From positions 1 to 21,254 of the IMG/VR virus record IMGVR_UViG_3300025898_000038: DNA of 21,254 nt. One strand, written 5' to 3'. The notes under the pieces are model-generated. The model made no database searches, was not told where the DNA came from, and worked only from the letters and a program-made list of their open reading frames with translations. Both the position numbers and the translations under genes were made by a program. Shown here one piece after another: positions 2,121 to 18,879 of this stretch (its first letter is position 1; each line of letters begins with the position of its first letter). Origin of the DNA: a virus.

Positions 2121-2420
2121 TCAGAGGTTGTCGTCCGAGGCCAGCTCTGCTGCCCCGACGAGGACTGCGATGACCTCCTGCTTGGATCGGTTGGTCTCCG
2201 CCTCCCAATCCTCGATGCTGTCGAAGCCCATGGCCTCAAGGAATCGGGCCACGTACTTCTCTGCACGCGGCTCCTTGGCCCGGTTGCGGTCGTTGAAGAC
2301 CGCCTGGCGCAGGGCCTCCTGGATGGTCACGGGCTCGTTGTCCCGACGAGCGTTGGCGTAGCCATGCTGACGGACAACGCCCGCCGCCTCACGCAGTGCG
2401 TCCTTGCACTTCATTGCCAT
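2121..2420 (-). CDS. hypothetical helical protein
   Basis: Encodes 99 residues starting MAMKCKDALREAAG, with CGGGAGACACC upstream of the ATG at 2420. The protein is almost wholly helical and charged, with an acidic C-terminus (GAAELASDDNL). No catalytic motif, cysteine cluster or membrane segment is seen. It stands alone between the peptidase gene (73-bp gap) and a strong hairpin, so it may be the last gene of the transcript that contains the peptidase and the two zinc-cluster proteins. The family is not recognised. Confidence 0.75.
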   Translation of the reverse strand: MAMKCKDALREAAGVVRQHGYANARRDNEPVTIQEALRQAVFNDRNRAKEPRAEKYVARFLEAMGFDSIEDWEAETNRSKQEVIAVLVGAAELASDDNL

Positions 2421-2493
2421 GATGGTGTCTCCCGTTTGGGTTGATGGTTGATGGTGTGACTGGTGTTCCCTGGTTTCTTGTCGGGGTATTAGC

Positions 2494-3744
2494 TCATACG
2501 ACTACCTCATTGACAGGAGACCTGTCTTCATGGTCTGGGTACTTGTGGAAGTCGTCGTCATGCACTGGCTTGTCTAGCAGGTAGTCGTACTTGCAGGCAC
2601 GACACAGGCCGTAGACCAGTTCGTTCTCACAGCCTGGGCACGTGCCGGGGAAGCCCGCGTACTCCTGTTGCTTCTTCTCCCAGTACTCACGGTCCTCCCG
2701 ATCCCAGCGGGTCCAGCAGTCCTCGATGGCCACGTCCGTTGACCCCTCGAACAGGGACAACATCTTGCTCTCGTGATTCCCGGCGGGTGGGTCGTCACGG
2801 TCGGCTCGCTTGTCCTTGACCTGATAGCCGTAGCCGTTGTGGGTCTTGGGCTTCTCCTTGACGTGGGGCAGGAGTGTGTCCTTGTGCTTCTCGTGGAATT
2901 TGAGGTAGTACGTCACCATCTCAAACATGTCATTGAGGAAGACGTGAGACCTGGGTCCGTGGTAGTCACGGTAGCCAACGCCCCAGTTGAATCCCTTGCA
3001 CCCCAGGTCATAGAGGCAGGCGATGTCTGAGAATGAGCCACGACTGTTGATGGTGGCACCTGTCTCGCGCACGAGTTCTCGCATCTCGTAGTTGTCGAAG
3101 TCGTACATCACAACGTCGGTGCCACCACGGTCGAACTCAATGATGTGGTTGTACTGACGCTTCGGTGGCACGAAGATGCCTGCGGTACTGCGCCCAGACT
3201 CCTCACCTGTGGTGAGCAGGTAGTCACACGTGATCCCCAGCTTGGTGAGGAGTTCCAGGATCACGTAGACCCCGAGGCGGTCATCCAGGGCGCCCGAGAA
3301 GACCACCGGACCCATGGCTGTGTCCCAGGCGATATCGCACTTGATCTCGTCTTCCACGGAATCTAGGTGCCCCACCGCCAGGATGTCGGCGCCGTTGTCC
3401 TGGTAGAAGTAGTAGTTCTCGGCGCGCTTCATGTCTGCGGCAACCCAGAGCTGCCCGTACTCCTCGAAGTCCGCCTCGGGCATGGTGCAGATCTTCTTCA
3501 GGACGTCGAAGTCGAACGCCTCTTTGACCTTGGCGAACAACCCCTTGTCCATGGGCACCTTGGTGGTCTTGGGTGCACTGCGCTCGCCCCAGTATTCGTC
3601 CTTGCACTCAACCCACTCTTGACGAACGCTGTCCCATCTCTGCACGCCCCCTCCCTTTGGTTCTGGAATGGACACGTGATGGCTCTCCTTGTCTTGGTAC
3701 TTCGAATGATTGAGGCGGCCACGCCGCCCGCGTCGTTGGCTCAT
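2494..3744 (-). CDS. M20/M28/M42-type metallopeptidase with C-terminal zinc ribbon
   Basis: Encodes 416 residues. The ATG at 3744 is chosen because GGAG lies about eight bases before it; an ATG two codons earlier is too close. The central part carries the full ligand pattern of co-catalytic zinc exopeptidases: HLDSV (126-130), GALDDRLGV (151-159, bridging Asp), TTGEESG (178-184, catalytic and ligand Glu), EFDRGG (203-208), and a late His in YHGPRSH (261-267). In the family these bind two metal ions and cleave N-terminal residues or amide bonds of small substrates. About residues 290-360 are a charged linker. A CPGC/CRAC zinc ribbon follows at 370-385. The ribbon is unusual for this family and may bind nucleic acid or a partner. 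Activity is likely from the intact motifs; the substrate is unknown. Confidence 0.8.
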   Translation of the reverse strand: MSQRRGRRGRLNHSKYQDKESHHVSIPEPKGGGVQRWDSVRQEWVECKDEYWGERSAPKTTKVPMDKGLFAKVKEAFDFDVLKKICTMPEADFEEYGQLWVAADMKRAENYYFYQDNGADILAVGHLDSVEDEIKCDIAWDTAMGPVVFSGALDDRLGVYVILELLTKLGITCDYLLTTGEESGRSTAGIFVPPKRQYNHIIEFDRGGTDVVMYDFDNYEMRELVRETGATINSRGSFSDIACLYDLGCKGFNWGVGYRDYHGPRSHVFLNDMFEMVTYYLKFHEKHKDTLLPHVKEKPKTHNGYGYQVKDKRADRDDPPAGNHESKMLSLFEGSTDVAIEDCWTRWDREDREYWEKKQQEYAGFPGTCPGCENELVYGLCRACKYDYLLDKPVHDDDFHKYPDHEDRSPVNEVVV

Positions 3745-3771
3745 GGGCATCTCCAGTGAGGGTGGTCAGGG

Positions 3772-5469
3772 TTAGAATTCAAAGTCATCCTCTCCCGCAA
3801 ATAGAGGCTCCGGATCGCGGATGGCCCATTCGGGCTGGATGCCCACACCCTGCACCACTGGCGGGTTGCGAAATCTCCAGTCCACTCCCCGCTCCGGTGG
3901 GCCGATGTGTAGTTGGTCGAGGATGATCCTTTCGATTGCGACCCGATGCTGGTCCTGTCCGTGGATATCTGCTCCTAGCTGAGCGTTCAGCGCGCCCACA
4001 TCTAGGGGCCTCTGAACGAGCTTGGTGGGTGGGTGCAAGGGTTCGGGTAGTACGCCGTGCACGTTCTGCAGCATGGTCAGATCAAGCCTCTTGCCCTTGT
4101 CGGCAGCGAAGGGTGCCAGAATCTCTTGTGTGGCCACGAGAAACCCTGTCTCACCGTTGACGTACATGATGTCGTGCGGGCTGTGGACGGGCACCTTTCG
4201 GTATGTGAGTCCGGTGAGCATGGCGACCAGTTGCGCTGGCGCATAGCCGCTCATCTCTCCGTAGCCATTGAACACGAAGTATGCCGAGGCTTTCGTGGCG
4301 TCGAGCATGGGCATGAGGGTGTCGTCCATGGGCAAGATCCAGGCCCGCCCGGTGGCCCTGCACTTCTCGTCAAAGGTGCGCACCCCCAGGCCACCAGACC
4401 CCTTCAGGGCGCAGCGTGAATGCTTGCTCCCACCCCAGTAGCACGATTCAGGGTGGGCGAAGTCTGCTGCTGAGAGGTTGAGGTTGCGCGTGAACTCGAT
4501 GACGTGGCGTGCCTCTTTGATGGTGTGCTGCTTGGCGATGTTGCCCACGTCAGCAAGGGTCTCGTCGCTCAACTCTATGGGTTTCACGCCCCAGAGGTTG
4601 GCGCCCTTGCCGTAATACTTATAGACGGCCTTGGCTAGGCGCTTAGGAAAGCTACCCGTGGACTTCATCCACTGGTTGCCAACCTCATCCACCAGATTGC
4701 GTGCTCGCCGATTGGGGATGTCCCACCCAACCTCGGTGAGCAGCCTGGCGATGAGCACTATGATGGCCACCAAGCCCTCCTCGGCGATGATCCCCGAAGG
4801 GAGCGTCACCTCGTGGGGTCGGTCGCTGCGAAGCGAGGAGCGTCCGGCGTCGATGGGGAAGTCGAACTCTTTGTGGGGTGCCTCACACTGACAGTTGCGG
4901 CACTCCGGTGTCCGGCACCGTGCACCCCAGTATCGCTCACCGCACCGTGGGCACACCGGAAGGAGTGCAAGGCATGAGTAGCAGAAGAGGTGGCCAGCGC
5001 CAGCATCCACAAGTTCCTGGTCTCGCCTTTCACAGCGCTCGCAGAAGGGGCGCCTGCGCCAGCAGCTAGTGCAATATACCTCACCGCCTGCCTCTCGTGC
5101 TCGATGTGTTCCGTAATGACACTGCGTGCATTCGCGCACGTTGTTCGCCGCAACACAGGTGGTGCAGAGATGGGTGGCGTTGAGGGAGTCTCGGTCGTAG
5201 TGCTGCATCACCTGGATGGTTTCGCGTCGGCACCGGCACTGGCCAAAGATGAGGTAGGGGTATCTCCGCTCCAGAAGGTTGCGGGCCTTAGGGCGGCGTC
5301 CCTGTGGGATCATGTCCATCAGTCGGTTGATGGGGGCGTCGTCATCAATGATGGCTAGGCGCTTCTCCCTATCCCGGAGGGCAGCGCGCAGCCACAGGAA
5401 GGCGGCCACGAAGCCGTGGACCGCTGCGGGATCACGCTTGGGGGCCTTGGCATCACGACGATGGGGCAT
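3772..5469 (-). CDS. zinc-cluster protein, paralogue A (unknown function)
   Basis: Encodes 565 residues, with GAGGACCAATC before the ATG at 5469. A basic, helical N-terminus (about 1-75) is followed by a cysteine-rich region (about 77-195) with eight or so knuckles (CRC, CTTC, CTQC, CTSC, CERC, CYSC, CPRC, CQC), consistent with several treble-clef or LIM-like zinc fingers. The C-terminal domain shares clear motifs with the next gene upstream: SLRSDR, SFPKRLAKAVYKYY, EFTRNL, then SCYW...SRCALKGSGGLGVRTF, TGRAWILPMD and FNGYGEMSGY. About 110 further residues at the C-terminus are absent from the paralogue. Invariant Arg, Cys, Trp, Asp and Gly residues suggest an enzyme or nucleic-acid-binding fold, but I do not recognise it. 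It sits between its paralogue and a metallopeptidase, probably in one transcript. Confidence 0.85.
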   Translation of the reverse strand: MPHRRDAKAPKRDPAAVHGFVAAFLWLRAALRDREKRLAIIDDDAPINRLMDMIPQGRRPKARNLLERRYPYLIFGQCRCRRETIQVMQHYDRDSLNATHLCTTCVAANNVRECTQCHYGTHRAREAGGEVYCTSCWRRRPFCERCERRDQELVDAGAGHLFCYSCLALLPVCPRCGERYWGARCRTPECRNCQCEAPHKEFDFPIDAGRSSLRSDRPHEVTLPSGIIAEEGLVAIIVLIARLLTEVGWDIPNRRARNLVDEVGNQWMKSTGSFPKRLAKAVYKYYGKGANLWGVKPIELSDETLADVGNIAKQHTIKEARHVIEFTRNLNLSAADFAHPESCYWGGSKHSRCALKGSGGLGVRTFDEKCRATGRAWILPMDDTLMPMLDATKASAYFVFNGYGEMSGYAPAQLVAMLTGLTYRKVPVHSPHDIMYVNGETGFLVATQEILAPFAADKGKRLDLTMLQNVHGVLPEPLHPPTKLVQRPLDVGALNAQLGADIHGQDQHRVAIERIILDQLHIGPPERGVDWRFRNPPVVQGVGIQPEWAIRDPEPLFAGEDDFEF

Positions 5470-5511
5470 GATTGGTCCTCTGTGAGTACGTGGTCGAGGC
5501 GGAGTGTAGCA

Positions 5512-7122
5512 TCAGGCCGCCGGAGCGGCGGCGGTGCGGTTCACCACGATGCCGTGGGTGGTTGTCTCGGGGAAGCACTGGCCGAGAGGGTAGATGATGT
5601 CCGGGGCGGCATCGAGGGTGGCCTGTGCGGCGACGAGGTAGCCGAAGTCTGCGTTGATTCCCAGCTCCCCATAGCCATAGCCACCCTTGCAGCCATTGGC
5701 CATGTAGTCATCGGGCGGGGAGAACCCAATCCTCTTGTAGTCGAGGCCCGTCATCATCGAGACGAGGCGAGGTGCCCGGTACTCGCTGAGTTCGCTGCCG
5801 TAGCAGTTGAAGATCACGTAGCCTGCGGCAAGCACGGTGTCATGCGTGGGCTTGTAGTCCTTGTCGATGGGCAGGATGAACGCTCGGCCCGTGAGATTCT
5901 CGGGGGTCCTCGTCTCGCTCGCATAGGTGCGGATCACCAGCCCACCGATACCCTTGAAGGTGCATCGTGACTGCGTGTAGTCGCTCCACCAACACGAAGT
6001 GGAGTTGCCGTAGGCGTTTCTGCCTTCGCCGAGGTCTCGGGTCAGATGAATGTAAACATCCCCACCCTTGGGTGTGTACTCGGTGGCGATGGTCCCGATC
6101 TGTGCGAGCAGCTCGGCCGATGCCTTGAACTTGCGGCATTCCTTGTAGAGCATCTTGCTGATGCGCTTGGGGAGCGTGCCATCCTTGGTGAGCCACGTCT
6201 TGTCGAACGTAGGCCACAGTCTTTGGACGGTTTCCATGCCCGCCTTGTCGCACATGTATGGAGCCCTCGCCCCTGGCCATTGAGGTTGATCTGCTAGCCC
6301 GTCCTTTCTGCTGTAGATGGCGTTGGTGAGAACGCTGAGGATGCGGTACGATCCGTTCTCATCCATCACACCGGCGGGCATGGACATCGTGACCATGCGA
6401 TCGCTGCGAATGGCGCCACCCACATAGGGGAACAGGAAGTCCGGGACGGGGGCTGTGCATGGGCACCTCGGGTCATTGTGGCGCAGCCCGTCAGGGCGCT
6501 CGGCCACCTCGGTGCCGTCGCCACAACGCTCGCAGTATCCTCCTTCACGGTAGACAACGTCATGGTCTTCGCAGTACGGGAGATCATCCCAACACGGTTC
6601 GCAGAAATCCGCGCCTTGCACCTCGTGCATGTCATCGTTGCGCGCAAACTCGTTGCACCCTGCGCACATTCTGAAGTAGCGATCACGGCACACCGTGCAG
6701 TAGCTCTGATCGTTGAGCCAATGGGCATCGTCGCTCAGAACGTACTCACCGCACTCGTCGCAGTGGGAGTAGAAGTCTTCCAGGCATTGCTCACATGTCG
6801 CACCCTTCCCGTTGACATAGCCTGCATTGCTGGACCAGGCCGGGGTGCCACAGGATTCGCACACAATGACCGTGCCTACGCCCACCAGTTTGTCCATGGC
6901 TGCGGTGAACTTGTTGCGGGCCTGCTCTGTGTTCTCCCATGCTTCGCGCAATGCCGCTTCGTCACCCTCCTTATTGCGCAGGGCAAGGATGCGTGCTGCG
7001 TGCGCTTGCACTGGCGGGACGACGCGAGGCACGTCGGCGATGACGGGCAACTCCTGTGCTGCCGGTCGAGGTGAGGTAGTGGCCGCAACGAAACGGCCGT
7101 GGGGTCCACGCCTAACGGGCAT
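5512..7122 (-). CDS. zinc-cluster protein, paralogue B (unknown function)
   Basis: Encodes 536 residues, with GGAGGGATCACCACC before the ATG at 7122. The zinc region (about 88-215) has regularly spaced knuckles CESC, CEQC, CDEC, CTVC, CAGC, CEPC, CEDH and CERC, typical of tandem treble-clef fingers. The C-terminal domain matches the neighbour at 3772-5469 motif by motif: AIRSDR, TLPKRISKMLYKE, HLTRDL, SCWW...SRCTFKGIGGLVIRTY, TGRAFILPID, FNCYGSELSEY and SMMTGLDYKR. The two proteins are therefore diverged tandem duplicates. The short C-terminal tail is Ala-rich. The N-terminal 60 residues are low-complexity (Pro, Ala, Val). No nuclease, polymerase or ligase signature is evident to me. A shortened tRNA-Glu lies directly upstream in the same direction. 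Confidence 0.85.
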   Translation of the reverse strand: MPVRRGPHGRFVAATTSPRPAAQELPVIADVPRVVPPVQAHAARILALRNKEGDEAALREAWENTEQARNKFTAAMDKLVGVGTVIVCESCGTPAWSSNAGYVNGKGATCEQCLEDFYSHCDECGEYVLSDDAHWLNDQSYCTVCRDRYFRMCAGCNEFARNDDMHEVQGADFCEPCWDDLPYCEDHDVVYREGGYCERCGDGTEVAERPDGLRHNDPRCPCTAPVPDFLFPYVGGAIRSDRMVTMSMPAGVMDENGSYRILSVLTNAIYSRKDGLADQPQWPGARAPYMCDKAGMETVQRLWPTFDKTWLTKDGTLPKRISKMLYKECRKFKASAELLAQIGTIATEYTPKGGDVYIHLTRDLGEGRNAYGNSTSCWWSDYTQSRCTFKGIGGLVIRTYASETRTPENLTGRAFILPIDKDYKPTHDTVLAAGYVIFNCYGSELSEYRAPRLVSMMTGLDYKRIGFSPPDDYMANGCKGGYGYGELGINADFGYLVAAQATLDAAPDIIYPLGQCFPETTTHGIVVNRTAAAPAA

Positions 7123-7185: not shown

Positions 7186-7257
7186 TGGTAACCGCAGGAT
7201 TCGAACCTGCGTCAGCGCCGTGAGAGGGCGCCATCCTGGCCTCTAGACGATGCGGTC
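7186..7257 (-). tRNA. tRNA-Glu(CTC), three bases short at the T-stem/acceptor junction
   Basis: The minus strand has a tRNA-Glu core: D-arm GTCTAGAGGCCAGGAT, anticodon stem GCGCC/GGCGC around loop CTCTCAC (anticodon CTC), and T-arm GCAGG-TTCGAAT-CCTGC. The 5' acceptor strand GACCGCA would pair fully with TGCGGTT followed by A and CCA, but TGC is shared with the 3' half of the T-stem, so three bases are missing. The length is 72 including CCA, against 76 for the intact copy at 8156. It is either a decaying pseudo-tRNA or an unusual short tRNA. Confidence 0.7.
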
Positions 7258-7276
7258 ATGCCCTTGTTGGACTGGG

Positions 7277-7471
7277 CTAATAGCCACAGCCATAGCCGTC
7301 GCCACAGCCATAGCCGTCGCTGAAGCCATAGCCCTCGCCATTGCCATTGCCGTAGCCGTAGCCGTAGCCGTAGCCATAGCCGTTGCCGCTCCTGTTGGCT
7401 TGGCCATTTCCGAAGCCGTACGCGAACGCAAAGCTAAACCAGTCGCCATCGATCGGCGGGTGGCGCTTCAT
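7277..7471 (-). CDS. Gly-Tyr repeat low-complexity protein
   Basis: Encodes 64 residues. The ATG at 7471 overlaps the upstream 28-residue gene by ATGA; the ribosome-binding site is weak, so coupling probably drives translation. After an N-terminal 25 residues (MKRHPPIDGDWFSFAF...), the rest is Gly-Tyr/Gly-Asn repeat (GYGYGYGYGYGNGNGEGYG) with two Cys near the end (GYGCGDGYGCGY). Such tracts are seen in disordered, self-associating or structural proteins; a role here is inference only. The opposite strand is also open but would encode an Ala-Val-Ile tract with no ribosome-binding site and is rejected. It lies last in a chain of four overlapping small genes, next to a tRNA. Confidence 0.6.
   Translation of the reverse strand: MKRHPPIDGDWFSFAFAYGFGNGQANRSGNGYGYGYGYGYGNGNGEGYGFSDGYGCGDGYGCGY
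7279..7390 (-). repeat. degenerate hexanucleotide repeat (GGCTAC/GGCTAT)
   Basis: On the plus strand TAGCCG/TAGCCA units recur, including a run of four perfect or nearly perfect units near 7350-7378. The repeat encodes the Gly-Tyr tract of the minus-strand gene. A repeat of this type can change length by replication slippage in steps of two codons without breaking the frame. Confidence 0.75.
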
Positions 7472-13150: not shown

Positions 13151-13367
13151 CTCCACCCTTCTCCCATACGAAAACATCTAATGGCATATCCAACCAGCGC
13201 GCCATGCGCAGGGCTGCAACCAGAGCTACATTCTTGCCGGTCTGCATGCGCGAGAATCCTGACGCACCTATGCCCAACTCCTTGGCCACCTGTCTCCATG
13301 TCATGTGCCGGGCAATCCGATGACGGTTCAGCGCTTCCCAGAATCCCTGGGCATCAAACTCAAGCAC
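13131..13367 (-). CDS. XRE/Cro-like helix-turn-helix protein
   Basis: Encodes 78 residues from a GTG at 13367 that overlaps the methyltransferase stop by 8 bp. The core MTWRQVAKELGIGASGFSRM (about residues 22-41) is a typical helix-turn-helix, followed by NVALVAALRMARWLDMPLDV, the third and fourth helices of an XRE/Cro domain. The protein is the size of a single-domain phage regulator. DNA binding is likely; targets are unknown. The repeats upstream of the divergent genes (14021-14049) and the dyad at 14874-14892 are possible operators, by inference. Confidence 0.78.
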   Translation of the reverse strand: MLEFDAQGFWEALNRHRIARHMTWRQVAKELGIGASGFSRMQTGKNVALVAALRMARWLDMPLDVFVWEKGGDEPTAQ

Positions 13368-14004
13368 GCGACAACGCCCAGGCCAAGCATCGTGGGTTGA
13401 CGAGGTCAAAGGGTCCCGACCCAGCCGGGAGGGCGAGCGAACGCGGCCCCGCATGCTTGGCAAACACCAGCATGCCTTGCGCATACCACCATCCCACACG
13501 CTCGTCTGCCCAGATCACCGGCCTCACACAGTCGTACACGTCGTACCCGTGGGCGGCGAACTTCTCGATCCAGTACTGTGGCCACTGCTCATTGATGTGA
13601 TCTGTGCCCCCCGAGCCAGGGATGGCCGCTGAGAAGATCACCAGCGAGGACAGGCCTACCAGTGAGCCCACCAGAGTGTCGGCGGCCTCCTCCGGCAGAT
13701 GCTCGGCGACCTCTAGGCACAGCGCCATGTCATAGCTGTCGCCCACATAGGGCTCTGCGAGGTCGTGGTGCTCGATCTCGTCCACCACCCCCGACGTCAT
13801 CCAGGAGCCCTCAACTCCTCTTATATGGGCGACCCCGGCCTCGCGAAGCTCCCGCAGCCATACCCCTCGCCCACACCCCAGGTCGATCACCGACTCGGGG
13901 GCGAACAGCTCCATCAGCAGGGGCACGACCACAGCCGCTGAACTCGCAGCCCCCACCTCTTGCTCGTCGTACCACTCCGCCGTATAGATCTCCGATCCAC
14001 TCAT
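13360..14004 (-). CDS. class I SAM-dependent methyltransferase
   Basis: Encodes 214 residues starting MSGSEIYTAEWYDEQ at 14004; the longer open frame upstream is low-complexity and is the antisense of the gene at 14107. SAM-binding motif I is clear (VIDLGCGRGVW, about 39-49), an acidic residue ends the second strand (GVEGSW), and EVAEHLPEEAAD (98-109) is the post-motif region of the Methyltransf_23-type group. The substrate is unknown. Such phage enzymes modify small molecules, proteins or nucleic acid; no DNA-methylase motif (DPPY or PCQ) is present. There is no ribosome-binding site; a TG-extended GATACT box seven bases upstream suggests a leaderless mRNA. It probably heads the leftward unit with the HTH gene. 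Confidence 0.85.
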   Translation of the reverse strand: MSGSEIYTAEWYDEQEVGAASSAAVVVPLLMELFAPESVIDLGCGRGVWLRELREAGVAHIRGVEGSWMTSGVVDEIEHHDLAEPYVGDSYDMALCLEVAEHLPEEAADTLVGSLVGLSSLVIFSAAIPGSGGTDHINEQWPQYWIEKFAAHGYDVYDCVRPVIWADERVGWWYAQGMLVFAKHAGPRSLALPAGSGPFDLVNPRCLAWALSRA

Positions 14005-14060
14005 TTGCACAGTATCCCACAAATGCAAGGACGCGCCATAAGTGCAAGGTCTGTCATACT
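14005..14060. promoter_or_regulatory. divergent control region between methyltransferase and late block
   Basis: Leftward, a TG-extended GATACT (14016-14011) places the RNA start at the methyltransferase ATG. Rightward, a TG-extended CATACT (14055-14060) could serve the gene at 14107. Direct repeats AARTGCAAGG lie at 14021-14030 and 14040-14049, 19 bp apart, and CATTTG/CAAATG is inverted around the leftward -10 (14002-14024). They look like regulator sites. Confidence 0.45.
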
Positions 14061-14106
14061 CAGGCCGACAGGGCCATCGCCCACCAGGGAACACCAGGAG
14101 ACCACC

Positions 14107-14262
14107 ATGACCGAAGGCATCCCCACCACGGAGAGCACCGAGGCTGTCGTGACCCACGCTGAGGACGAGGCACCCGCCGAGGAGACCGTCGCGGAGACGT
14201 CCACCGAGGAGACCACGGACGAGGCACCCGCGCAGGAAGGTGACGAGCCCGCCCAGGGCTGA
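14107..14262 (+). CDS. small acidic disordered protein
   Basis: Encodes 51 residues, with AGGAGACCACC before the ATG. The composition is almost entirely Glu, Thr, Ala, Asp and Pro with near-repeats (EDEAPAEETVAETSTEETTD), so it is intrinsically disordered and strongly acidic. It is the first gene of the rightward block. Possible roles such as DNA mimic, anti-host factor or assembly chaperone are speculation. Longer in-frame starts upstream lie in the promoter region and have no ribosome-binding site. Confidence 0.65.
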   Translation: MTEGIPTTESTEAVVTHAEDEAPAEETVAETSTEETTDEAPAQEGDEPAQG

Positions 14263-14291
14263 CGTAACAGATCCACCACCCATGCATGGGA

Positions 14292-15126: not shown

Positions 15127-15649
15127 CGACGATCTTATCGACCCACCCTCTCGCGACATGGTCGTGCTGGAGGGCCATAAGTCCAAGAACCTAGAGGTCA
15201 TTGAGCTATCGCGCCAGTGCTTTGAGCGCTGTCGTGATGGCGAGTCCATTCAGCAGATCGCCTCTAGCCTCCATCTGAACGCCCAGCAAGTTGTCAGCTA
15301 CATCTCCAAGGCTCTGCGCTTCGCCATTCCGGTGAGCCAGGAATCCATGAGGCTCCTGGAGATCGCGCGCATGGAGGAGATTGGGCGCATCCTGATGGAG
15401 GAGATCGCCGATACCCATGCCGCTGGCAGGGTCTACGCCCGTACCGTCGAGATGTACATTCGCGCCAGCGAGCATCGTGCCAAGCTGGCCCAGCTCGATA
15501 AGGTCGAGGTCAAGATGCGGCGTCACGGGAACAACAGGGAGCAGGCATCACGTGTCCCAGTCGTCATCGACATCGTCCGCGACCCAGGGGCAGCGTCAGC
15601 GCAGTCTGCAGGTGAAGCTCTACCCCCACCAGCAGAAAGCGTGGGATAG
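15119..15649 (+). CDS. terS: terminase small subunit (probable)
   Basis: Encodes 176 residues. Immediately before the large terminase, it has the expected build: a helix-turn-helix-like segment GESIQQIASSLHLNAQQVVS (about 41-60), a long helical middle (EIARMEEIGRILMEEIADTHAAG and beyond, about 80-135) that could form the oligomeric ring, and a flexible Pro/Ala-rich C-terminus. Small terminases bind the packaging site and regulate the large subunit. Sequence similarity is weak, so the call rests on HTH, size and position. It has no own ribosome-binding site; it is coupled to the upstream gene by an 8-bp overlap, and overlaps terL by 98 bp. Confidence 0.65.
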   Translation: MDNDDLIDPPSRDMVVLEGHKSKNLEVIELSRQCFERCRDGESIQQIASSLHLNAQQVVSYISKALRFAIPVSQESMRLLEIARMEEIGRILMEEIADTHAAGRVYARTVEMYIRASEHRAKLAQLDKVEVKMRRHGNNREQASRVPVVIDIVRDPGAASAQSAGEALPPPAESVG

Positions 15650-16877
15650 CAAGAAGCGCTTCGTCGTTCTCTGTGGCGGGACTGGGGCTGGAAAGACGTT
15701 CTATGCCCCCAAATGGGTGTACAAGCAGATGGCCAAGCCCGAGGCGTTCGGCATGGCCATTGGCACAGCCTACAAGCGCCACGTCGCCAACCTCATGGTC
15801 CCCACGCTGACCAAATTCCTGGACAGCATCGAGTGTCAATGGCGCTACGTGGAGGACAAGGGGCTGCTCACGCTGCCGTACTTCGGCAGCAAGATGATCT
15901 TCGGATCAGCGGACAACCCCAACAACCTCGAAGGTCCCCATGTGGACTTCGGGTGGATGGACGAGGCGGGTCTGATGTCGCGTCTCGCCTGGGATGTCCT
16001 GCGCCGCCGTACAGGAGCCTGCTCCGGACAGATCCTCATCACCACCATCCCCTACTTCAGGGGCTGGCTGATGACCGATTGCTATGAGCCCTGGGTCAAT
16101 GGCACCGACGAGGGCCTTGTCGAGTGGATCAAGTGCTCGTCCTCAGACAATCCCGAGTACTCGCGCGAGGAGATTGAGTACCAGCGCAAGCACATGCGCC
16201 CCGACAAGTTCGCCATTTACTACCTGGGCGAATGGGCTAAGCCCGCTGGACTCGTGTTTCCTACCGACATCACCGAACCAGCGCTCGTGGACCTCGCCAA
16301 AGAGTTCGCGTGGAACGATTGTGAGTGCTGTAGGGGCTCGATTCCCCACGAATGGCCCGCCTATGCAGGCCACGACTGGGGTTTCAACGCTCCCACAACG
16401 GGTGTGTGGGGCCGATTGAGCCCCGATGACGTGCTCTACATCGTCGCGGACTACCAATTGGCCGGTCTGACCATCGAAGAGCACGTCGATGAGTGGAAAA
16501 TGGCGGGTCTCAACGAGGTAGACGGGGCCTTTGGCGATCCCGCAAGCCCTGAACAGTGGCTGAGAGCGGCGAATTGCGGCTATCCGATCGAAAAAGCCGA
16601 CAATTCCATCTCCTCAGGCATCGATGCCATCACCGACAGGCTCAAAAGCGGCCGGTTGAAGGTCTCGCGCGAGTGCCAGAACGTCATTGACTGCTTCGAC
16701 AGCTATGTCTGGGCCGAATCCAAGGACAACGATCAAGAATTCCTGGATAAACCCGCCAAACCACAGCCTGCTGAGCACGTTATGGACGGTTTGCGCTATT
16801 TGGTGGTCTCCGTGGCCCAGATTAGCCTCCAGCCGACCAAGACAGTGGTTGATTCGCGCACCAGGAACGTTGCCTGA
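15552..16877 (+). CDS. terL: terminase large subunit
   Basis: Encodes 441 residues from a GTG at 15552, with AGGGAG ten bases before; a later GTG at 15612 would give 421 residues. ATPase: Walker A GGTGAGKT (42-49) and Walker B FGWMDE (133-138). Nuclease of RNase H fold: acidic residues in YAGHDWGFN (D275), GAFGDPAS (D329) and HVMDGLRY (D412). The protein pumps DNA into the prohead through the portal and cuts concatemers. An unusual DCECCRG stretch (256-262), rich in Cys, lies just before the nuclease domain. The 98-bp overlap with terS is large but supported by the ribosome-binding site. The stop shares a base with the next start. Confidence 0.93.
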   Translation: MSQSSSTSSATQGQRQRSLQVKLYPHQQKAWDSKKRFVVLCGGTGAGKTFYAPKWVYKQMAKPEAFGMAIGTAYKRHVANLMVPTLTKFLDSIECQWRYVEDKGLLTLPYFGSKMIFGSADNPNNLEGPHVDFGWMDEAGLMSRLAWDVLRRRTGACSGQILITTIPYFRGWLMTDCYEPWVNGTDEGLVEWIKCSSSDNPEYSREEIEYQRKHMRPDKFAIYYLGEWAKPAGLVFPTDITEPALVDLAKEFAWNDCECCRGSIPHEWPAYAGHDWGFNAPTTGVWGRLSPDDVLYIVADYQLAGLTIEEHVDEWKMAGLNEVDGAFGDPASPEQWLRAANCGYPIEKADNSISSGIDAITDRLKSGRLKVSRECQNVIDCFDSYVWAESKDNDQEFLDKPAKPQPAEHVMDGLRYLVVSVAQISLQPTKTVVDSRTRNVA

Positions 16878-17245
16878 TGGCCCGCGTGCCCTTCAGCAAG
16901 AAGGTTGACGAGCCCGCACAGCGCCAGAAGCCCCAAAACAAGGGGAACACGGCCAAGGAGGCTCCCACGGGGGTCGAGGACGGCCCCAAGACGGGTGTCC
17001 ATGGCACTGGGGGCAAGGGAACGCGTCCGGGCACCGTCACACCGGGCACAGTGCGACCCGCCGACGTGGTTTTGCCCAATGTCATGCATCCCACCATTGA
17101 GATGGACGATCACGACTTTGCCGATGGTCGTCGGCAGCGTCGTGAAGGCCCATCTGACTACGCCAAGCCCTTTGGGCGCTATGCGCCCGATGATCCACGC
17201 ATTGTGAGCCGCCTCTTTGGGGTGGATATGGGAGATATCGACTAG
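16877..17245 (+). CDS. hypothetical protein between terminase and portal
   Basis: Encodes 122 residues. The start shares a base with the terL stop (TGATG) and the stop shares a base with the portal GTG (TAGTG). The first 60 residues are Lys/Gly/Thr/Pro-rich and disordered (KKVDEPAQRQKPQNKGNTAK). The C-terminal half has short conserved-looking pieces: VVLPNVMHPTIEMDDHDF and DYAKPFGRYAPDDPRIVSR. It may be a portal- or packaging-associated small protein. The location is the only support. Confidence 0.72.
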   Translation: MARVPFSKKVDEPAQRQKPQNKGNTAKEAPTGVEDGPKTGVHGTGGKGTRPGTVTPGTVRPADVVLPNVMHPTIEMDDHDFADGRRQRREGPSDYAKPFGRYAPDDPRIVSRLFGVDMGDID

Positions 17246-18879
17246 TGGCGATCAACGCCAAGCAGGTTATGCCGCAGCGCAACGCTGGGCTGGTGTCGCG
17301 CATCACAAAGCTGTGGACGACCAGCACACCCAGCCTTGGGCCGCAGCCCCTGGAGCGAGATACCACGGCCTCGGGTTCCACCAGCGTTGAGCTGGGTTCG
17401 CGCAACCCCTGGGGCGATTTCTTCCGCACATCCACCGACAGATTGGCCACCTACGACGACGTCGAGGAGCTGGACAGCCAGAGCGAGGAGGCATCCACCG
17501 CCCTGGACATCATCTCCAACAATGCGACCTCGTCCGAGGACGGATCGCAGCACAGTTGCGACATCACCAGCCCCAATGCTCGTGTTCAGCAGATCATCGA
17601 AGAGACCGAGCAGTACACCCGGATTCATGATCGCATTGCGCACCTCACCAGGAACTGCCTGAAGTATGGGGACCTCTTTGTTGAGGTGGTCATCAACGGC
17701 CAGGGCCAGGTGACCGACCTACGCCAACTACCGGCGCGCACGATGTACCGCAACGAGGATGAATACGGCAACCTCATGATGGGAACGCCCCGCTATGAGG
17801 GAGGTAAGTGCGTCAACAACGAAGGCGAGTGCGCCTTTGAACAGCGCAACGCTGACACCAAGCAGATCATCGCCGCCTTCTATCCCTGGCAGATCATTCA
17901 CCTGCGTTGGAATCACGACGGCACCAACAAGTACGGTCGCTCTCACCTTCGCGTAGCGCGCTCAACCTGGAAGAAGCTACACGCCGAGGAAGAGTCGCTG
18001 ATCATGGGGCGACTGGTGCGCGCGCTACTCAAGCTGATCTTCTACATCGATACCACGGGTCAGTCTGAGGCGCAGAAGCGCGCGACGGTTCGTGAGTTCA
18101 AGCAGGCGATGAATCGTCGCGTGCAGATCGATGGTTCGCGCGAGTCGCCGTGGTCTGTCATGACCGATTACTACCTGACCACCGAGACCATCCCCATGCG
18201 CGGTGGCCAGGTCGTGCAGTCGCAAAGCAAGATCGACACCATCGATCCGCGCAACGAGGGGCTGCAGCAGATCGAGGATGTAAAACACTTCCACCGCAAA
18301 TTCCTTGGCGTGCTGCGCGTGCCGCGCTCGTACCTCGGGTTTGAAGAGGACACACAGGGCACAGCACAGCTCAGCCAGGAAGAGGTCCAGTACATCCGCC
18401 TCCTGCGCGATGTCCAGCGCTTCATGGGCCATTTCATCTGGCATGTGATGGCCATCGCCCAGGTCCTGCAAGGAATGGACCCCTGGTCGGCGGACAACAA
18501 GGTCGAGACAGCGTGGCCATCGCTCTCGGTGAACGATGAGCTGAACGATGCTCAGGCCGAGTACCAGCAGGCGCAAGCCATTGCCATCCTGCTGGGCACG
18601 TCGTCGCTCAACCAGACTCCCGTGGTGTCGGTTCGCTATGTGCTGGAGCACTATCTTGAACTCAACGAAGAGCAAATCGAGGACATCATGGAGGAGCTGG
18701 AGAGCAAGCGCCAGGCTGACCTGGAGGCTTCCATCGCTGCAGCCCAGGCTGGCGCCAGGGATCTCGCGCCCACCAACGCCCCTGTGATCCATCAGAAGGA
18801 GCCGCCGGGCTCGACGCGCTCCGTCAAGGGCGTGGACACGTCCACGCGCCTGACCACCGTCGATACTGACGCTGCCTGA
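17245..18879 (+). CDS. portal protein, T4 gp20-like
   Basis: Encodes 544 residues from a GTG at 17245, with GGGAG upstream. Features of the T4-type portal are visible: an N-terminal region with YDDVEELDSQSEEASTALDI (about 70-89); the wing and stem part with KLIFYIDTTGQSEAQKRATV (about 265-284); then GLQQIEDVKHFHRKFLGVLRV (about 332-352) followed by PRSYLGFEED. A C-terminal acidic helix (ELNEEQIEDIMEELESKRQA) may form the barrel. Twelve copies would form the ring at one capsid vertex through which TerL packages DNA and to which the neck attaches. This type of portal is typical of myoviruses. Confidence 0.9.
   Translation: MAINAKQVMPQRNAGLVSRITKLWTTSTPSLGPQPLERDTTASGSTSVELGSRNPWGDFFRTSTDRLATYDDVEELDSQSEEASTALDIISNNATSSEDGSQHSCDITSPNARVQQIIEETEQYTRIHDRIAHLTRNCLKYGDLFVEVVINGQGQVTDLRQLPARTMYRNEDEYGNLMMGTPRYEGGKCVNNEGECAFEQRNADTKQIIAAFYPWQIIHLRWNHDGTNKYGRSHLRVARSTWKKLHAEEESLIMGRLVRALLKLIFYIDTTGQSEAQKRATVREFKQAMNRRVQIDGSRESPWSVMTDYYLTTETIPMRGGQVVQSQSKIDTIDPRNEGLQQIEDVKHFHRKFLGVLRVPRSYLGFEEDTQGTAQLSQEEVQYIRLLRDVQRFMGHFIWHVMAIAQVLQGMDPWSADNKVETAWPSLSVNDELNDAQAEYQQAQAIAILLGTSSLNQTPVVSVRYVLEHYLELNEEQIEDIMEELESKRQADLEASIAAAQAGARDLAPTNAPVIHQKEPPGSTRSVKGVDTSTRLTTVDTDAA

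Follow-up and report, generated by a model that had tools for sequence, protein, structure and literature searches.

A zinc-knuckle protein family with a predicted divergent GNAT-like domain, encoded beside an M28/M42-like peptidase gene in uncultured bacterial viruses

The DNA analysed here (the window) comprises 21,254 bases, positions 1 to 21,254 of IMG/VR virus record IMGVR_UViG_3300025898_000038, from an uncultured bacterial virus. Its minus strand carries a three-gene unit in which the first gene, copy A (P0002, 536 aa; 5512–7122), is followed after 42 nt by copy B (P0001, 565 aa; 3772–5469) and, after 21 nt more, by a peptidase-like ORF of 418 residues (2494–3750). Just upstream of the pair, at 7243–7471 on the same strand, lies a short-period repeat reading as a GYGYGNGNG-rich stretch. 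A first-pass annotation had described the first two genes as encoding adjacent proteins of 536–565 residues that share one plan, an array of CxxC knuckles followed by a motif-bearing domain. The positions and lengths of both ORFs agree with this description, and BLASTP aligns the two proteins over 402 columns with 31% identity and an E-value of 3e-47. The motifs RSDR, PKR, TR(D/N)L, SC(W/Y)W, SRC..KG.GGL, TGRA(F/W)ILP, FN.YG and M(M/L)TGL.Y(K/R) fall in register, and each copy contains seven CxxC motifs. The motif alignment between the two proteins, which had been proposed as a check, holds throughout, and on this alignment copies A and B are true paralogues.

In copy A, the zinc-knuckle array with its seven CxxC motifs spans residues 88–200 (6523–6861, minus strand), and the GNAT-like domain, placed by aligning the family with the modelled domain, covers residues 350–512 or thereabouts (5587–6075, minus strand). 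This copy deviates from the family in having F where W is near-invariant after GRA. Copy B consists of a zinc-knuckle array, a helical segment, the GNAT-like domain and a C-terminal extension, all likewise on the minus strand. Its array, again with seven CxxC motifs, spans residues 102–193 (4891–5166). The N-terminal part of the core, at about residues 202–318 (4516–4866), is made up of strands and helices and bears the PKR..K..YK motif; it is modelled mostly with pLDDT values of 82–97, and its structural look-alikes found with VIA are all helical, with Z-scores up to 5.4. The GNAT-like domain proper, about residues 319–462 (4084–4515), contains the invariant residues S342-C343, G374-R375, F400-N401-x-Y403 and N438. 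The C-terminal extension that had been noted in one of the copies is present at about residues 466–565 (3775–4074); it has no counterpart in copy A, and its model confidence is mostly low (pLDDT mostly under 66).

The third gene encodes a metallopeptidase/deacylase-like protein of the M28/M42-like type. It matches the phage peptidase family PHROG 4191 (phrog_4191) with an E-value of 1e-11, and its scores against Pfam stay below gathering level for both Peptidase_M28 (18 versus 21.3 bits) and M42 (14.3 versus 23.2 bits). The motifs HLD, DDR, EE, FDR and YH are intact in the window protein and invariant among its relatives. We take these to be the positions that provide the metal ligands and the catalytic residue in the M28/M42 clan (H, D, E, D/E and H, plus the catalytic E), and because they are kept, the hydrolase is probably active. 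With its metal-ligand motifs intact, the protein belongs among the M28/M42-like phage peptidases of PHROG 4191 and PHROG 34186; it differs from M42 proper in lacking the long insert, its HLD and DDR motifs being separated by about 33 residues. Weak matches to N-acyl-amino-acid deacylases and to DapE- and LysK-like proteins are compatible with a chemistry involving acyl groups. An internal cut in a target protein would be atypical of M28/M42 relatives, which as a rule act as exopeptidases.

Neither copy of the zinc protein reaches the cut-off of any model in Pfam, PHROG, NCBIfam or PADLOC. The nearest approach is a weak match of copy A alone to DZR_2, a double zinc ribbon, at 17.3 bits against a cut-off of 27. 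As the anti-phage defence models of PADLOC give no match, we have dropped a known defence system as the identity of these proteins. Searches with tblastn of named phages, using the window proteins and a typical relative, and of plasmids, using the typical relative, returned no match; weak hits in Mycobacterium phages run antisense to an annotated gene and are attributable to chance. Single-protein look-ups in viral contigs returned nothing, and sequence searches against solved structures produced no convincing match. Relatives were instead found among viral contigs with a degenerate DNA pattern built on the conserved CxW...CxxKxxGG spacing, and an alignment search added more. Those found with the pattern were confirmed with phmmer at E-values of 1e-27 or better, and profile searches recover relatives in other contigs at E-values down to 1e-190, a conservation which, on these alignments, is far above chance. 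The relatives lie in 17 other IMG/VR contigs of 38–164 kb. None turned up when 84,980 genomes of bacteria and archaea were scanned twice, with patterns short enough that distant members may be missed.

The signature SC(W/F)...(G/A)RxW...FNxY...N keeps its S, C, R, N, Y and N unchanged in all of 40 diverse members. The earlier reading of the proteins as an unrecognised zinc-knuckle family with an enzyme-like core is thus borne out, both by this invariance among very distant members and by the lack of any curated family at cut-off. The suggestion to check whether the two paralogues always occur together has a different outcome. Over the 17 contigs and the window, one copy per contig is the rule; the window has two, and G003 and G015 have three each, those of G015 being shorter and divergent. 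In a tree, the G003 copies form one supported clade and the G015 copies another, so that these are separate local duplications. The two window copies fall with L031 in a group that the tree does not resolve, copy A being on a long branch (2.21). With one copy in most relatives, the tandem pair has been dropped as a functional unit. Four members (L020, L019, L026 and L040) carry acidic GYDxDGYDxxG repeats on the N-terminal side of the zinc array, which the window copies lack.

The linkage that is conserved involves the peptidase gene, which the first-pass annotation had left out. This gene is present in 17 of 17 family contigs and adjoins the zinc protein gene in all but L045, where the two are about 5 kb apart. 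In the reverse test, with the peptidase alignment as the sole query, 39 contigs were recovered. A GNAT-like protein is encoded next to the peptidase, upstream and on the same strand, in 30 of them, half of which (15) are new; the loci of L126 and L127 match, which puts the independent number slightly below 30. The new contigs include L132 (IMGVR_UViG_3300037484_000435), which at 545 kb has the size of a huge phage. In six further contigs, two of which (L116 and L129) carry the same sequence, the upstream place is taken by a protein whose core bears an SCMT motif and whose C-terminus has zinc ribbons. Late HMM iterations draw this group into the family, largely through the zinc knuckles. The other three contigs are L107, which is the L045 contig again; L119, which starts inside the peptidase; and L117, with an unrelated repeat protein (SATVxAxxSATVRA; 2215–3342) directly upstream of the peptidase, the only complete peptidase locus lacking a zinc partner. 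At one locus, in L131 (1046–5316), two peptidase ORFs alternate with two GNAT-like partners. As a rough negative control, unrelated viral contigs matching the first pattern by chance had no such peptidase in the stretches examined. The adjacency is kept across contigs of 5 to 545 kb whose other neighbours differ, and it is recovered from either gene. Overall, we conclude that the conserved unit is the zinc protein with the peptidase and not the tandem pair, a conclusion that is well supported.

To the fold of the C-terminal domain, two predicted models speak. An AlphaFold2 model of copy B, computed with 23 family sequences, has high confidence for residues 200–465 and poor confidence for the zinc array and the C-terminal extension; the isolated domain of a typical relative was modelled with a pLDDT of 89 and a pTM of 0.85. 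In a Foldseek search of the PDB with the isolated domain, the best 50 matches are all GNAT folds, with probabilities of up to 0.89, and are led by a ribosomal-protein-alanine N-acetyltransferase at an E-value of 0.03. VIA-align gives, among 50 matches, Z-scores of 4.5–5.4 over 83–118 aligned residues; about 45 of the 50 titles name an acetyltransferase or a malonyl-CoA decarboxylase, one fold class as far as titles tell. The same region of the full-length model aligns to GNATs at a Z of about 4. In both models, DSSP assigns the GNAT order of strands and helices, b-a-a-b-b-b-a-b-b. None of these structural matches is significant by E-value (E of 0.03 or above, Z of 5.4 or below), and a Z of about 5 is a level that may reflect a common arrangement only. 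After strand 4, the family does not conserve the Q/RxxGxG/A signature of the pyrophosphate (CoA) loop; the alignment shows YG-xLxGYxxxR or unrelated loops there, and no GNAT model of Pfam or NCBIfam matches the family.

The consistency of the structural matches leads us to propose a divergent GNAT-like fold, an assignment that is moderately supported by the models, the resemblance being remote. In view of the weak scores and the absent loop signature, we describe the domain as GNAT-like and not as a GNAT enzyme, and with that signature not conserved no donor can be named. The family is predicted to share its fold and its strand and helix order with the GNAT superfamily (RimI-like proteins, YhbS, TacT/AtaT, NatD and the GNAT-like domain of malonyl-CoA decarboxylase); it differs in the absence of a significant E-value and of the CoA loop signature, in its own invariant SC...RxW...FNxY...N signature and in the fused zinc-knuckle array. 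In the model, the invariant residues sit close to the loop that precedes the first helices, in strand 3, where strand 4 ends and immediately ahead of strand 6. We infer that S, C, R, N, Y and N line one cleft; these polar residues look catalytic, as would be expected of an active site. Fold prediction had been put forward as a means of either naming an enzyme or revealing a new fold. Predicted with good confidence, the domain has a likeness to GNAT folds and to no others, so that no unknown fold has emerged, yet no match is strong enough to name the enzyme.

Comparable pairs occur in cultured phages. Relatives of the window peptidase are found in Enterococcus phages and in Vibrio phage VP7. 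In VP7, VP93, Klebsiella phages F19 and KPPK108.1, Shigella phage Buco and Pseudomonas phage C171, a protein of about 560–714 residues with an SCM motif precedes the peptidase; most of these proteins have CxxC ribbons at the C-terminus, and primase and helicase genes follow shortly after the pair. The early pair of KP34-like phages (Drulisvirus), Bucovirus, Maculvirus and Kantovirus, of the KP34p10/p11 type, thus has a layout like that of the window, the large SCM protein being encoded immediately ahead of a peptidase that is annotated as such or is of the PHROG 4191 type; the VP7 member belongs to PHROG 6980. In KP34 itself, a hypothetical protein (KP34p10) and a putative peptidase (KP34p11) are listed ahead of the primase, without function (PMC4411677). 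The KP34-type partner differs from the window family in its reversed domain order, and homology of the cores is not significant: profile–profile comparison of PHROG 6980 with the window family gives probabilities of 35%, for the zinc knuckles only, and 40%, for part of the core, and the motif register agrees without significance. In Enterococcus phages H1 and EF1, two paralogues of PHROG 18912 flank the related PHROG 34186 peptidase, as seen in H1, and have no detectable sequence homology to the window family. Neither the KP34-like proteins nor PHROG 18912 were kept as proven homologues, their profile similarity not being significant. Because the profile comparisons do not establish homology, we regard the partners in cultured phages as an analogous arrangement only. 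These analogous pairs, divergent in sequence, range from the 43 kb KP34-like phages to the 545 kb contig.

Our best explanation, which we hold tentatively, is that the paralogues are zinc-guided proteins resembling acyl- or aminoacyltransferases that work with the hydrolase on one substrate. The N-terminal zinc-knuckle array would probably bind this substrate, a protein or a nucleic acid, and the GNAT-like domain would probably move an acyl or aminoacyl group onto an amine. The co-encoded di-metal hydrolase could then remove or trim the group, or cleave the marked target. The unit would thus be a cassette of transferase and hydrolase, with the transferase side duplicated in the window. The computations show the paralogy, the family, the linkage, the predicted fold class and the intact hydrolase motifs; catalysis, the transfer chemistry, its donor and substrate and the direction of the reaction are what we infer here. 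A more specific version, which we consider possible if doubtful, is an undescribed phage modification system in which a GNAT-derived transferase dispensing with the standard use of acyl-CoA, for example with an aminoacyl donor, marks its target, protein or nucleic acid, and the mark is edited or taken off by a dedicated di-metal hydrolase. Rac of phage LUZ19 and Mom of phage Mu, respectively a predicted GNAT and a GNAT protein that modify host or phage molecules, are like the function proposed here. Neither is known to us to have a zinc array or to be linked to an M28/M42-like gene.

Among the alternatives, there is some chance that the zinc protein is a non-catalytic adaptor, its GNAT-like domain and knuckles binding a host target and delivering it to the peptidase, which would do the chemistry. 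The strict adjacency to the peptidase, the loss of the CoA signature, the many zinc knuckles and the greater sequence variability of the partner families than of the peptidase would all suit such a role, whereas the invariance of S-C, R, N, Y and N in 40 very distant members suggests catalysis more than a mere surface for binding.

The pairing of a GNAT-like protein with a peptidase also recalls LUZ19 Rac, a predicted GNAT that causes the alpha subunit of host RNA polymerase to be cleaved (PMC7552054); the unit might likewise take over the host by acylating proteins that are then cleaved. The window peptidase is, however, of the exopeptidase/deacylase type, and we judge this reading unlikely. 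Modification of DNA or RNA, in which an aminoacyl-type group is added to a base and trimmed by the hydrolase, has a precedent in phage Mu Mom, a base modifier of the GNAT superfamily (PMC7824862); zinc knuckles could hold nucleic acid, and the analogous pair adjoins primase and helicase genes in KP34-like and VP93-like phages. Given that the KP34-like partner has no significant homology by profile comparison, and that none of the genes immediately flanking the unit in the window was recognised as a DNA-modification gene, such a function seems improbable. That these are ordinary accessory genes, brought into one operon by chance or inherited together without acting jointly, as neighbours in compact phage genomes may travel together and as the 5 kb separation in L045/L107 might suggest, is less probable still, in the face of an adjacency that persists from the smallest to the largest contigs amid otherwise different neighbours and from either gene as query.

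Copies A and B therefore represent a new family, so far without a name, whose core is GNAT-like but divergent and which forms part of a widespread two-gene phage module of which our literature search found no description. The transferase-like half belongs to no curated family, and for the peptidase half 'putative peptidase' is the sole label. A two-gene unit kept across very different phages must be useful during infection, and as cultured KP34-like and VP93-like phages have a pair laid out in the same way in their early region, it is accessible to bench tests now. If the transferase reading is true, the module would represent a new modification chemistry in the conflict between phage and host.

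Elsewhere in the window, genes for a T4-type large terminase and a gp20-like portal protein lie at 15417–18879. The terminase is shared with L018, in which the pair lies about 5 kb from the terminase gene. A protein with a Methyltransferase_23 domain, scoring above the cut-off, is encoded at 13360–14283, and a small DUF4241/PHROG 5209-like protein at 1355–1813.
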